Below the pieces are notes generated by a model that was not told where the DNA came from, did not search any database, and saw only the letters and a list, made by a program, of their open reading frames with translations. Positions 57,592-61,576 of a DNA stretch of 64,000 nucleotides are shown here, piece after piece (the stretch's first letter is position 1; each line of letters opens with the position of its first letter). The translations under genes and the position numbers were made by a program. The stretch covers positions 1 through 64,000 of the forward strand of contig NZ_AP025184.1 in assembly GCF_020886055.1 (NCBI RefSeq), in the 5' to 3' direction. This DNA is from Flavobacterium ammoniigenes (lineage in GTDB: Bacteria > Bacteroidota > Bacteroidia > Flavobacteriales > Flavobacteriaceae).

Positions 57592-57610
57592 ATTAATTTC
57601 GAAATGATAA

Positions 57611-57640
57611 AAAAAGGAGCTTCAATTGAGGCTCCTTTTT
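57611..57640 (+). terminator. Bidirectional terminator between lysS and the barrel gene
   Basis: A 10-bp stem AAAAAGGAGC / GCTCCTTTTT (57611-57620 and 57631-57640) has a self-complementary TCAATTGA core in the loop. Confidence 0.9.
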
Positions 57641-57645
57641 TGGTT

Positions 57646-58599
57646 TTACAACGAATAATTCAGATTAAAGCTCCAACGACAATTGGCTTCTACATTACCT
57701 CCAGTTAAATTTTGCTTAATAGGCAACATGACATTGGCTCCAAAAGAAAAAGCATTACGCCCCACTTCAAAACCTACTTTACCAAATAATGCATTGCCTG
57801 ACGTTTTATTCAATTGGATTCCGTATTGGTAATTGCTTTCGTAATTTTCTCCTGCAATTCCAATTTGAGGAGCAAAGGAGTACGCATCCTTTTCATTCAA
57901 ATAGAAGAAAGTAGCAGCATAATTCAATTGATTTCCAAAACGGTAATTTTTCTGATTTTCGGTTTTAATCACGTAATTCAATAGCGTGTTGAGTCCGAAT
58001 TGTTTTCTTCTAATTATATATTCGGTTGCCAAAAGATAATCCCAACTCCCCGTTCCTACTTGAAAACTCGGATTGACATTCCCAGAATTAGCTTGGTTGA
58101 ATTTGCCTGATGGCATTTTTACACCACCGCCCATTTGTAAGGTATGTACCAAAAAAGTACTGTCTTTATGTGTTTGATACAATCGATACATCGCTAAAAG
58201 TGTAATATCTCCAACACCATTAATCGCTTGATCTCCTGTAGCCGTGGCTCTGTTGTGCGAATGATATGGAAATAAAACCGAAAGCTGCACATTTTCCTTT
58301 ACGGGAATTCGAGCCCAAACTTGAGTAGTATTGAAATTTTCTTTGTACCAAAGTGAATTACTATACAAGCCATCTGTCGATTGGTATTGCTGATTAAAAT
58401 AGCGAATGCCGACGAAGTTAGAATTCAACATCGATGCAAATCCCATACTTCCACCACTAGCCGAGCAACCGCAAGCATCACAATCATCTTCCAAAAAATG
58501 ATGAAATTGAGTAAACGGATTTTTGAATTGTAAACTGTCTTTTTCGGTGGCATTAGCTAATTGAAAAACTAATACTAGTACTAATGTTATTTTCTTCAT
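57646..58599 (-). CDS. Predicted outer-membrane beta-barrel with N-terminal Cys cluster
   Basis: The 317-residue protein has a signal peptide (MKKITLVLVLVFQLANA). A mature N-terminus follows with an acidic Cys cluster, EDDCDACGCSASGGS (Cys40, Cys43, Cys45). Amphipathic beta-strand repeats follow, ending CRWSFNLNYSL, as expected for an outer-membrane barrel. It resembles the transporter-like barrels related to the phenol-degradation MetA family, but I am not sure of the family. It starts 11 nt after the di-heme peroxidase gene, so it is the last gene of the putative copper operon. The CxxCxC cluster could bind a metal such as copper. Function unknown. Confidence 0.7.
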   Translation of the reverse strand: MKKITLVLVLVFQLANATEKDSLQFKNPFTQFHHFLEDDCDACGCSASGGSMGFASMLNSNFVGIRYFNQQYQSTDGLYSNSLWYKENFNTTQVWARIPVKENVQLSVLFPYHSHNRATATGDQAINGVGDITLLAMYRLYQTHKDSTFLVHTLQMGGGVKMPSGKFNQANSGNVNPSFQVGTGSWDYLLATEYIIRRKQFGLNTLLNYVIKTENQKNYRFGNQLNYAATFFYLNEKDAYSFAPQIGIAGENYESNYQYGIQLNKTSGNALFGKVGFEVGRNAFSFGANVMLPIKQNLTGGNVEANCRWSFNLNYSL

Positions 58600-58610
58600 T
58601 TTACAATAAT

Positions 58611-59651
58611 TTAATATTCAGAAAAACGTTTATCGGTTAAATACTGCGTATCCGTTAGGGTTTTCAAAAAAGCTATTAATTGTGATTTCTCTGATGCAGT
58701 TAATGCAATTCCTAACATTCCATTTCTTTTTAAAATAGGATCCAATGTCGCAGAATTTTCGACCCCTGAACTGTAATGATCTAAAACTGCTTCTAAAGTA
58801 TACAAACGACCATCATGCATGTACGGAGCAGTTTTTTCCACATTACGCAAACTTGGCACTTTAAATTTATGCAAGTCCTGAGCTAATTGACTAACACGAA
58901 AACGTCCGACATCATTAATTAAAGGATTAACAGGTAACCCATTATTTCGAAACGAATTGTCGGTAAATAAATCGGTTGCGTGACAGCTGGCACATTTTTT
59001 ATTAAAAACAGTATATCCATCTAATTCTTGTTGAGATAAAGTTCCACCTGCTTCATTGCGTCGGTATTTATCAAAACGAGAATTGGACGAAGTCACCATC
59101 AACATGAATTGACCTAGGGCTTTCAGCATATTTTCCGAATTGATTTGACCATCTGTAAACGCCAATTGAAACATTTTTTGATATTCGGCATCTCCTTTCA
59201 TCATAGCAATTGCTTTGCTAAAATCACCGTTCATTTCTATTGGGCTTGTAAACGGAATAATCGGTTGTAAATCCAAATGTGTCGTTGCTCCGTCATACAT
59301 AAAACTCGTTTGATAGCCTAAGTTCTGGATCGAAGGTGTATTTCTGGTTCCAATAGCATCATTTACCCCATGACTAAGTGAATGTCCGTGATGTGTAAAA
59401 GCATCCTCTTGTATGTGACAAAACCCACACGAAACTATTCCATCAGATGCCAAACGTCCTTCATAAAATAGTTTTTTGCCTAGTTCAAATCCTTTTTGCG
59501 TAGGAGGATTATTTGCTAAATCATACGCTAATGGAGGAAAATTAGAAGGTAACTTGAATTCCAATGGAATGTTTTGGTACACATCATCTTGATCATTGGA
59601 ACAACTCCACAACAATGGTAAAATGAGTAACAATAAAAAATTTGTTTTCAT
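58611..59651 (-). CDS. Di-heme cytochrome c peroxidase/MauG-family lipoprotein, MbnH-like
   Basis: The 346-residue protein has a lipoprotein signal (LPLLWSCSN, Cys17). Two c-type heme sites are visible, CGFCH (75-79) and CASCH (220-224), and the C-terminal TAPYMHDGRLYTLEAV carries the Met/His region usual in bacterial peroxidases. Family members either reduce peroxide or, like MauG and MbnH, oxidise a tryptophan of a partner. The gene lies directly after an MbnP-like gene (53 nt), matching the MbnH-MbnP pairing in which MbnH converts a Trp of MbnP to kynurenine. That specific activity is inferred from context. Confidence 0.88.
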   Translation of the reverse strand: MKTNFLLLLILPLLWSCSNDQDDVYQNIPLEFKLPSNFPPLAYDLANNPPTQKGFELGKKLFYEGRLASDGIVSCGFCHIQEDAFTHHGHSLSHGVNDAIGTRNTPSIQNLGYQTSFMYDGATTHLDLQPIIPFTSPIEMNGDFSKAIAMMKGDAEYQKMFQLAFTDGQINSENMLKALGQFMLMVTSSNSRFDKYRRNEAGGTLSQQELDGYTVFNKKCASCHATDLFTDNSFRNNGLPVNPLINDVGRFRVSQLAQDLHKFKVPSLRNVEKTAPYMHDGRLYTLEAVLDHYSSGVENSATLDPILKRNGMLGIALTASEKSQLIAFLKTLTDTQYLTDKRFSEY

Positions 59652-59704
59652 TTTCTAAGATTTTTAAAGCGGTCAGCTAGACACCAACCGCTTTGAGATT
59701 AAAT

Positions 59705-60499
59705 TTAGTCGTTATGTACGTGTTCTACACTAAACATAGTAGGAAGATTTGAAGTAATTAAAGGTAATTTATCACCACTCATAATCATTGCTCCCATTCC
59801 CATTCCATTACTTGCTGTTAAACTAATTTTATTAGTTCCATTTAGCACTTTTGAAATATCAGCCATAATATGGACTTGTGGAGTAATAGTAGTTCTTACC
59901 AATGCATTTGTTGGCAAATTCAATGTAACAGTGGTGTAGTTGTAATCTGTTCCTGTTTGTCCTGTATGTACCATAAAACTAGTCGCCGTAGTTACTGTTG
60001 ACGAAGTAAAAGTTCCTTCGAAAGCTAAAAACTTATATCCTGCCGACCATGACCACATCATACCAGCAGTTTGTGCTAATGCTAAAAAATCACCTTGACC
60101 CGTGGCTCCTATATTAAATTGGGCTTGATCCACTCCAATTCCAAAACTTACTTTAGTATAATTTGCTGCAGGAATATTTGGAAGATTTAATAAAGCACTT
60201 GCTGCAGTAGCCTCATCCACAATAAAATAACTCTGAGATTTTGGCAATGTAAATGTTGTTCCATCTGCTTTTGTCAATACAATATTGCTTACAATATATT
60301 TTAGCTTATTTATCTTGACTACTTCACCATTAGAATTAGTATATGGTGTATTAAAAGCTAAATTATTAGCATTGTACACATTGTCAAATTCTAATTTTAA
60401 GTTTCCATTTCCTGAAATAACTTCATCATCATTAGAACAAGAGAATAAACTGATTGCGATTACAACAACCGCTGCGATTTTTTTTAATTGAAATTTCAT
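59705..60499 (-). CDS. MbnP-like copper-binding lipoprotein
   Basis: The 264-residue protein has a lipobox (ISLFSCSND, Cys21) and an all-beta body: LKLEFDNVYN, KLKYIVSNIVL, NYTKVSFGIGVDQ and KFLAFEG. This is the pattern of the MbnP family. Its only two tryptophans, Trp149 and Trp151 in GMMWSWSAGYK, fall in the family's conserved WxW region. In methanotroph MbnP a kynurenine made from Trp contributes to copper binding. Met- and His-rich segments near the C-terminus (NGMGMGAMIMS, VEHVHND) would also suit copper. A TonB-independent periplasmic or surface copper role is inferred. Confidence 0.85.
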   Translation of the reverse strand: MKFQLKKIAAVVVIAISLFSCSNDDEVISGNGNLKLEFDNVYNANNLAFNTPYTNSNGEVVKINKLKYIVSNIVLTKADGTTFTLPKSQSYFIVDEATAASALLNLPNIPAANYTKVSFGIGVDQAQFNIGATGQGDFLALAQTAGMMWSWSAGYKFLAFEGTFTSSTVTTATSFMVHTGQTGTDYNYTTVTLNLPTNALVRTTITPQVHIMADISKVLNGTNKISLTASNGMGMGAMIMSGDKLPLITSNLPTMFSVEHVHND

Positions 60500-60581
60500 T
60501 TCTTAAATTTTATGTAAATAATAAATAGTATCAGTCTGCTTTTCATTTAGATAATTCTAAAAAAAAAGCACACCAATTTTA

Positions 60582-60602
60582 TATTCGTTTGTATAACGAA
60601 TA
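60582..60602. promoter_or_regulatory. Dyad upstream of the MbnP-like gene
   Basis: TATTCGTT (60582-60589) and AACGAATA (60595-60602) form a perfect 8-bp inverted repeat around a 5-bp centre, about 83 bp before the MbnP ATG and inside the 130-bp gap after the Cys-rich gene. It is an operator candidate; it could also be a weak hairpin in a polycistronic mRNA. Confidence 0.4.
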
Positions 60603-60629
60603 CAGGGCAAACACATTGCCAACTATAAT

Positions 60630-61004
60630 TTAAGAAAGGATTGTGGGGGGATGAAAAACCGAATTGGTTATCAAATAGGAATAAAAATCCAAATAAGTAG
60701 ATCGATTTTTGGGTTGTTTAGAACATCCGCATGACACCAGTTTATAAGAGCCAACTTCATTAAAAAACAACACTTCTTGTATTGGTGAAAAAGATTTTTT
60801 GTCGGAAGATTTTGGATTTTCTGTCTCAGCCGCTTTAGCTAATTCTTTCATCAAATGACATTTTCCGTTACATTGTAGTTTGGGTTTGTCTTTGTTTTCA
60901 CAAAGCACTTTGCTAATGTATTCATAGTTAATAACATAATCTACAACCGGAAGAATTGGCTTTAGAAACAAGGCGATAACTAGTATGAATAGGATGTTTT
61001 TCAC
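60630..61004 (-). CDS. Small Cys-rich membrane-anchored protein of the MbnP/MbnH operon
   Basis: This unrecognised 124-residue protein has an N-terminal hydrophobic segment (ILFILVIALFLKPILPVV), either signal or anchor. A first metal-site-like motif follows: Cys35, then CNGKCHLM (Cys45, Cys49, His50, Met52). The middle is Lys/Ser-rich and a second motif is SCGCS (Cys92, Cys94). The CxxxCH with nearby Met recalls copper chaperones of the SCO type but without that fold. It heads the operon with MbnP-, MbnH- and barrel genes. The start is GTG 61004, with TACTTTTG ending only 5 bp upstream. A copper-delivery role is inferred. Confidence 0.65.
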   Translation of the reverse strand: MKNILFILVIALFLKPILPVVDYVINYEYISKVLCENKDKPKLQCNGKCHLMKELAKAAETENPKSSDKKSFSPIQEVLFFNEVGSYKLVSCGCSKQPKNRSTYLDFYSYLITNSVFHPPTILS

Positions 61005-61008
61005 CTTG

Positions 61009-61016
61009 CAAAAGTA
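61009..61016 (-). promoter_or_regulatory. -7-like element abutting the Cys-rich gene
   Basis: The minus strand reads TACTTTTG, a perfect TAnnTTTG, but it ends only 4 bp before the GTG start codon. If used, the mRNA would be nearly leaderless. No -33 element is found. Confidence 0.35.
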
Positions 61017-61144
61017 AGTAATACTTGTGTTTTTAAAAAATTATAACTTTAAAAATAGTAATTCTAAATACTAAACTTATGTTAAGAATTAAACCTTATC
61101 AATAGCCTTAGGTCTTACCCTGCAGTAACTTAAAAATTAAAATC

Positions 61145-61576
61145 ATGAAAAAAGTATGTATTGTTGCCCTATTAGTAATTGGACTAAGTAGTTTTGCCCA
61201 GGAAAGAAAAGAAAGACACCCCAAAGGAGAAATCGAACAAATGACTCTGGAACAACGCAATCAATTGCACCTTAAAAAAATGACCTTGGATTTGGATCTC
61301 AATGCCAAACAACAAGAACAAGTTGGCAAATTAATGACGGAGCAAATGGCTAAAATAGAGAAAATGAAAGCCGAACACAAAGCCAAAATGGAAGAAGCAA
61401 AAGCGCTTCGTTTTGAGATGAAAAATAAAATGCTCGACGAGCAAATTGAATTGAAAAACAAAATGAAAAGCATTTTATCCGCTGACCAATTTGCCAAATG
61501 GGAATTGAGAAAAGACAGAAACAACAAGCGAATGGGCGAAAAAAGAAAATTACACAAAGAACATCAAAGGGATTAA
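61145..61576 (+). CDS. Spy/CpxP-like periplasmic helical protein
   Basis: The 143-residue protein has a signal peptide (MKKVCIVALLVIGLSSFAQ). Its mature part is highly charged and all-helical, rich in Lys, Glu, Met and Gln (LNAKQQEQVGKLMTEQMAKIEKM, ILSADQFAKWELRKD). The LTxxQ-like elements TLEQRNQLHLKKM and LSADQFAKW resemble the Spy/CpxP/CnrX group of periplasmic chaperones and metal sensors. Its position beside the putative copper operon, on the opposite strand, makes a metal- or envelope-stress role plausible, not proven. A terminator follows the stop. Confidence 0.62.
   Translation: MKKVCIVALLVIGLSSFAQERKERHPKGEIEQMTLEQRNQLHLKKMTLDLDLNAKQQEQVGKLMTEQMAKIEKMKAEHKAKMEEAKALRFEMKNKMLDEQIELKNKMKSILSADQFAKWELRKDRNNKRMGEKRKLHKEHQRD

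Follow-up and report, generated by a model that had tools for sequence, protein, structure and literature searches.

A fixed four-gene MbnP/MbnH-type unit in Flavobacterium ammoniigenes, and the MbnP residues that accompany its di-haem partner

The MbnP/MbnH locus

The window analysed here, a 64,000 nucleotide stretch of Flavobacterium ammoniigenes (contig NZ_AP025184.1), contains at 57646..61004 four same-strand (-) open reading frames (ORFs) encoding a small membrane-anchored Cys-rich protein we call cysS, an MbnP-family lipoprotein, an MbnH-type di-haem protein, and an outer-membrane beta-barrel. The ORF listing places all four at the positions, and in the order, given in a preliminary description of this sequence. 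In related genomes two residues of MbnP, W149 and H178, go with the presence of MbnH, and W151 does not. Coordinates of these and other features are collected in Table 1.

The lipoprotein matches PF20243 in a Pfam scan (162.4 bits, cut-off 27) and was found to have the MbnP fold, which bears out the family first proposed for it. Its lipobox residue Cys21 is its sole cysteine, and a WSW motif at 149-151 is followed by H178, which aligns with a His of PDB entry 7l6g (E 0.17). The score against the equivalog model TIGR04052 (MbnP_like_WxW) is 49.5 bits against a required 140, and the four-Cys motif of that model's older name is absent.

The di-haem protein, whose gene adjoins mbnP, contains a CCP_MauG domain (Pfam, 161 bits), two CXXCH haem motifs and a lipobox Cys17. 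Its best NCBIfam match is the MbnH model TIGR04039 (217.8 bits, against 171.1 for the MauG model TIGR03791) and its top PDB match is 6e1c, 'Di-heme enzyme' (E 1.9e-45), which we take to be MbnH of Methylosinus trichosporium; MbnH is thus its nearest family, as had been suggested. The equivalog cut-off of TIGR04039 (362.85 bits) is missed by the window protein and reached in none of 35 related genomes that carry MbnP. In the alignment Y293 is paired with a Tyr of 6e1c, presumably the distal haem-ligand Tyr of MbnH and MauG.

Neither of the remaining two proteins was assigned to a family by Pfam or NCBIfam scans (E 0.5 in the Pfam scan of the barrel), hence the window barrel has no COG4313 or PF13557 profile match; PF13557 is precomputed for 8 among 120 homologues listed. 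The structural model of the barrel is a predicted beta-barrel with 13 strand segments, and its best-scoring PDB matches are the COG4313 channel 4rl8 (E 1.5e-9, TM-score 0.58-0.69) and FapF (E 2.4e-9). An N-terminal CDxCGC segment is conserved among distinct barrels, the sole exception belonging to locus L112. In cysS, C35, C45, C49, G47 and a C-terminal PP are invariant in 27/27 aligned rows (window and paralogues included), so that the description of this protein as Cys-rich holds for C35, C45 and C49 and fails for a later CGC of the window protein, which is not conserved.

Table 1. Features of the four-gene unit in the window (residue numbers in brackets).
Feature	Position	Strand	Remarks
Outer-membrane beta-barrel, possibly COG4313-channel-like in fold	57646..58599	-	317 aa; model pLDDT (predicted local distance difference test) 75
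CDACGC codons (40-45), N-terminal segment of barrel	58465..58482	-	CDxCGC in 90/91 distinct barrels
MbnH-type di-haem c lipoprotein	58611..59651	-	346 aa
Y293 codon	58773..58775	-	Aligned with a Tyr of 6e1c; Tyr in 130/137 MbnH rows
Second haem motif CASCH (220-224)	58980..58994	-	C220, C223, H224 in 137/137 MbnH rows
First haem motif CGFCH (75-79)	59415..59429	-	C75, C78, H79 each in 136/137 MbnH rows
MbnP-family lipoprotein	59705..60499	-	264 aa; PF20243
H260-V261-H262 codons, C-terminal, possible second metal site	59714..59722	-	Both His in 116/130 with MbnH, 8/9 without
H178 codon, predicted copper ligand	59966..59968	-	130/130 with MbnH, lost in 6/9 without
W151 codon, second Trp of WxW	60047..60049	-	130/130 with MbnH, 9/9 without
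W149 codon, first Trp of WxW, predicted kynurenine site	60053..60055	-	130/130 with MbnH, lost in 6/9 without
cysS	60630..61004	-	124 aa, GTG start; membrane-anchored; operon's first gene
TACTTTTG	61009..61016	-	Fits Bacteroidota -7 element, 4 bases before cysS GTG start

Conservation of the four-gene unit

A scan of named genomes with an MbnP alignment, from which the best 80 of 277 relatives were kept, found MbnH after MbnP in 78 loci (exceptions L107, L122), cysS before MbnP in 79 (L074 being cut there by the end of its record), and the barrel in 78 (L068 and L093, both at record ends, are the exceptions, and the L134 barrel is cut to 100 aa by its record end). A family sample of 249 Flavobacteriaceae genomes, in which each search scored the best few candidates of a genome and may have missed others, gave MbnP in 128 genomes, the barrel in 56 (40 of them at 170 bits or more), cysS in at least 167 and MbnH (E 1e-55) in at least 169. 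All 40 of the strong barrels stand directly behind MbnP-MbnH when coordinates are compared by eye (the pair is doubled in G290), and for 37 of them a cysS gene is immediately upstream among the matches listed (the remainder being G187, G200 and G238). The four-gene unit is therefore fixed and a chance arrangement is excluded; the barrel is a constant partner in relatives, in keeping with its proposed role as outer-membrane partner, and the reading of the locus as an envelope system in a Flavobacterium is supported.

MbnP residues that accompany MbnH

Genomes that carry MbnP and not MbnH were mostly sought on purpose, so their number here is not a frequency. In a genus sample of 398 genomes, again with the best few candidates of each genome scored, group-1 MbnP (the group of the window protein) occurs in at least 201 and MbnH (E 1e-112) in at least 241; among the matches listed, compared by eye, six genomes had MbnP and no MbnH at that threshold (G011, G340, G393, G420, G485, G510) and four had only a weaker MbnH (G026, G360, G556, G641). 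G257 was added from the family sample and L107 (genome G308) from the named-genome scan, and G510 was excluded for its broken MbnP (below 150 bits). The test set comprises 139 distinct MbnPs of the window's group from fetched loci, each scoring at least 150 bits to the group profile, and an MbnP was scored as MbnH-linked where a same-strand MbnH match lies at most 5 kb downstream. Nine are MbnH-less: G011 (Flavobacterium sp. SM15), G026, G257, G308, G340, G360, G485, G556 and G641. In six of these loci the barrel ORF begins 5 to 149 bases past the last MbnP codon, and in G340 a YHS-domain ORF (L186:4344-4622) stands exactly in MbnH's place, between MbnP and barrel; G257 and G360 have no barrel. 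MbnP, cysS and a CDxCGC barrel with intact cysteines are still together in the other seven. With all candidates scored, neither SM15 (sole match a 599-aa peroxidase) nor G257 (one 185-bit match) gave a true MbnH anywhere in the genome, and neither did G485 with at most 5 candidates scored.

W149, W151 and H178 are all kept in the 130 MbnH-linked MbnPs. Among the nine without MbnH, W149 is lost in six (to G, S, M, L, M and P) and H178 likewise in six (Y, Y, Q, Q, M, Q), and W151 is kept in every one; G257 retains both tryptophans at a spacing one residue longer (WDSW), which brings the broken WxW motifs to 7/9. General decay of MbnP after loss of MbnH is disfavoured: W149 and H178 show the most losses among the 17 columns conserved at 97% or more in MbnH-linked MbnPs, followed by F157 (3/9), N72 (2/9), five others in 1/9 each and eight in none, so that 15 of the 17 are lost in 0-3 of nine. 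Fisher tests of the 8 uncut loci against the 130, with no correction for kinship, gave p of 3e-9 for WxW and 1.4e-7 for H178 (L107 was omitted as cut by its record end, though its barrel comes immediately after MbnP). On the MbnP tree the MbnH state must change 7 times, and well-supported branches force 4 of these changes; a joined MbnP, barrel and cysS tree, built from 91 loci that include 8 of the 9, requires 5 changes, each of them forced. Over 5 independent pairs, WxW tracks MbnH in 4.2 on average and H178 in 3.2, and neither ever moves in the opposite direction.

A second comparison used 23 MbnPs of another, more distant group, 22 with an adjoining MbnH. Here Trp occupies the W149 position in 22/23, the W151 position holds Trp in 9 and Val in the other 14, all 23 retain H178, and the His of a GGGYH motif is kept in 22; the one that lost it, L166, is also the sole member without MbnH nearby. 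Taking both groups together, the first Trp accompanies MbnH in nearly all cases, and the second shows no such association. The preliminary description had left the modified residue open between Trp149 and Trp151: W149 is favoured, and W151 can be set aside as the target, being retained in every MbnH-less MbnP of the first group and replaced by Val in most of a group that almost uniformly has MbnH.

Relation to known systems

The nearest characterised system is the MbnP/MbnH pair of M. trichosporium (7l6g, 6e1c; TIGR04052/TIGR04039), which shares with the window locus the adjacent gene pair, the MbnP fold, and an aligned WxW with its following His. It differs in that both window proteins fall below the NCBIfam cut-offs, the window MbnP has one Cys (the lipobox) where the 7l6g name cites a 'four-Cys motif', and the window pair has fixed partners, cysS and the CDxCGC barrel. 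The residue modified in the M. trichosporium protein is reportedly the first Trp of WxW, in agreement with W149. MauG belongs to the same di-haem superfamily and acts on another substrate than MbnH; the window protein scores lower to it than to MbnH. The barrel may resemble the COG4313 channel and FapF (5o65, 5o67, 5o68) in its predicted fold and departs from them in sequence (10-13% identity), in its CDxCGC segment and in its operon context.

The methanotroph proteins CorA/CorB and MopE/SACCP offer a further parallel, a kynurenine-site copper protein whose gene lies beside a di-haem peroxidase-like gene, and in CorA Cu(I) is held by two His with a kynurenine nearby (both PMC3912023). A W149/H178 site agrees with this. 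PMC3621798 describes MbnP sequences as without marked similarity to CorA or MopE, and neither was among the three PDB matches of the window MbnP. According to that 2013 survey the MbnP/MbnH pair is also conserved well outside the set of methanobactin producers under study, so its occurrence outside them is not new, and PMC9426467 mentions copper operons that include MbnPH-like genes. Our literature searches, which did not cover subscription papers or the cysS and barrel families, found among the papers listed none on a Bacteroidota MbnP/MbnH operon. In a common genus, a pair known from a methanotroph here belongs to a fixed outer-membrane unit of four genes; its two partners represent families for which no model exists, and comparison of the genomes offers a test of which residues depend on the modifying enzyme.

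Proposed function and alternative explanations

We think it probable, with considerable reservation, that the unit is an outer-membrane-associated copper(I)-handling module in which MbnH oxidises W149 of MbnP to create a copper(I) site with H178, with the barrel and cysS as partners. In outline, the MauG-like di-haem MbnH would oxidise W149 of the lipoprotein, most likely to kynurenine; the oxidised residue and H178 would form the copper(I) site; MbnP would act beside a COG4313-like channel bearing an N-terminal CDxCGC cluster; and membrane-anchored cysS might serve the same metal as a thiol relay or regulator. The pattern is most simply explained if MauG-like chemistry acts on W149, yielding a kynurenine copper(I) site together with H178. 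We infer that kynurenine is the product and copper the metal, and likewise the transport direction and what the barrel and cysS do; the first two, proposed in the preliminary description, are put more weakly here as they derive from homology and covariation. Copper is suggested by homology and by neighbours in sibling loci, which include SCO1, a P-type ATPase and a YHS protein. The account predicts an oxidised W149, H178 as a ligand and a structural role for W151, all of which can be checked directly, with Flavobacterium sp. SM15 and other MbnH-less strains as natural controls.

Several observations weigh against this account. Independent losses of MbnH number just 5-7, and paired sign tests give p of 0.06-0.25 for WxW and 0.125-0.5 for H178, because there are too few pairs for significance. 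In G026 and G641 both W149 and H178 persist although no MbnH adjoins MbnP; each of these genomes encodes an MbnH at another place, but the same is true of the site-losing G308, G360, G556 and G340 (truncated by a contig end in the last). SM15 has lost W149 but retains H178. MbnH is in pieces in G393 and G420, where the site is kept and which our script scored as MbnH-linked; if these enzymes are dead, WxW is kept in 4/11 MbnH-less MbnPs and not 2/9. In the distant group, L166 retains Trp at the W149 position without MbnH nearby, and L228 has Phe there with MbnH. The TIGR04039 and TIGR04052 scores are below cut-off, and the window itself contains no test of copper.

The persistence of MbnP, cysS and an intact CDxCGC barrel together in 7/9 MbnH-less loci suggests that MbnP also serves the barrel by another route, perhaps through the C-terminal HVH, of which both His are present in 116/130 MbnPs with MbnH and 8/9 without. 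We advance, as possible but less likely than not, a two-site scheme for Flavobacteriaceae MbnP, an optional MbnH-dependent kynurenine copper site and a permanent role with the CDxCGC channel and HVH, MbnH-less lineages then having a kynurenine-free channel partner; if true, those lineages would be natural mutants for studying post-translational cofactor formation. The same two observations, the surviving loci and the retained HVH, would also fit an MbnP whose basic role beside the Cys-cluster barrel is structural or one of passing on metal, with the MbnH-made copper site an add-on dropped by some lineages. We regard that as possible and on the unlikely side, since the site is retained in every MbnP with MbnH downstream, and the MbnH-less L191 and L039, whose terminal branches are long (0.54 and 0.43, against a median of 0.12), may be heading towards loss.

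The same design might serve another metal (zinc, nickel, iron) or envelope redox stress: Cys clusters and HVH are able to bind several metals, the L046 locus contains a superoxide dismutase gene, and a weak Spy/Metal_resist-like protein (below cut-off) is divergent from the window operon. The copper-related neighbours in sibling loci argue otherwise, and the kynurenine site of the characterised MbnP reportedly binds Cu(I). The known kynurenine sites of CorA and MopE do too (PMC3912023), and we consider this alternative improbable. That the di-haem protein simply reduces H2O2 as an ordinary peroxidase, with MbnP an unrelated neighbour and W149 and H178 decaying by relaxation in a less-used operon, is highly unlikely. 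Ordinary di-haem peroxidases do match well (4aal, E 1.8e-32) and the TIGR04039 cut-off is missed, but the best matches are of MbnH type (6e1c in the PDB, and TIGR04039 above MauG), Y293 aligns with the Tyr of 6e1c at a position where ordinary di-haem peroxidases typically have Met, and high loss is confined to 2 of the 17 invariant columns.

Changing partners and flanking sequence

Where the barrel is absent, MbnP sometimes has a different outer-membrane partner. In 7 loci a 661-675-aa protein is encoded between MbnP and an upstream cysS gene, beside a YtkA-like lipoprotein (Pfam 20.6-26.8 bits in three scanned, cut-off 25.9). The L048 member is a TonB-dependent receptor barrel by Pfam; three others scanned gave no Pfam match, and each of the six remaining members shares 70-75% identity with that of L048. 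This swap of partners around MbnP fits the barrel being a working part. The YtkA-like lipoproteins of L045, L048 and L171 have a common DPRMPEPSMGNHSSP segment that looks metal-binding. Elsewhere in Flavobacterium a more distant MbnP-MbnH pair (L194-L196) has behind it a YHYH protein that bears a type IX secretion tail, and in G026 (L183) an MbnH stands beside a YHYH gene with no MbnP there, so YHYH may be a partner or substrate.

Twelve weak barrel matches in the family sample (36-54 bits, about 340 aa) lie directly behind a cysS gene and, by coordinates, away from MbnP. The four that were read (L167-L170) have no CDxCGC in their first 90 residues and a His- and Met-rich N-terminal segment, no MbnP or MbnH lies alongside, and the one scanned matches PF13557; we treat the twelve as a separate cysS-barrel pair and not as window-type barrels. 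Broken remains of a barrel gene occur in L184 (G245), a genome without an MbnP match in the family-sample search.

Upstream of cysS, TACTTTTG fits TAnnTTTG, which we take to be the consensus of the Bacteroidota -7 promoter element. The combination TAnnTTTGC N2-4 GTGAA was found in 36/75 related loci (mean 0.0 in 30 shuffles), and the cysS transcript is possibly leaderless, starting at its GTG (61004-61016). A k-mer search for regulator sites upstream of cysS in these 75 loci yielded this start region and a palindrome, GTTTAN4TTAAC, which is present only with a divergent Spy-like gene (22/34 loci with that gene, 0/41 without) and is therefore not assigned to this operon. The window has it once in its 64 kb, at 61081-61094, in the intergenic stretch shared with its own divergent Spy/LTXXQ-like gene (61145-61576, +; Metal_resist 19 bits, below cut-off). 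At the other end of the unit, a hairpin with A/T runs was seen by eye between lysS and the barrel gene (57605-57645) and is likely a shared terminator of these two convergent genes.

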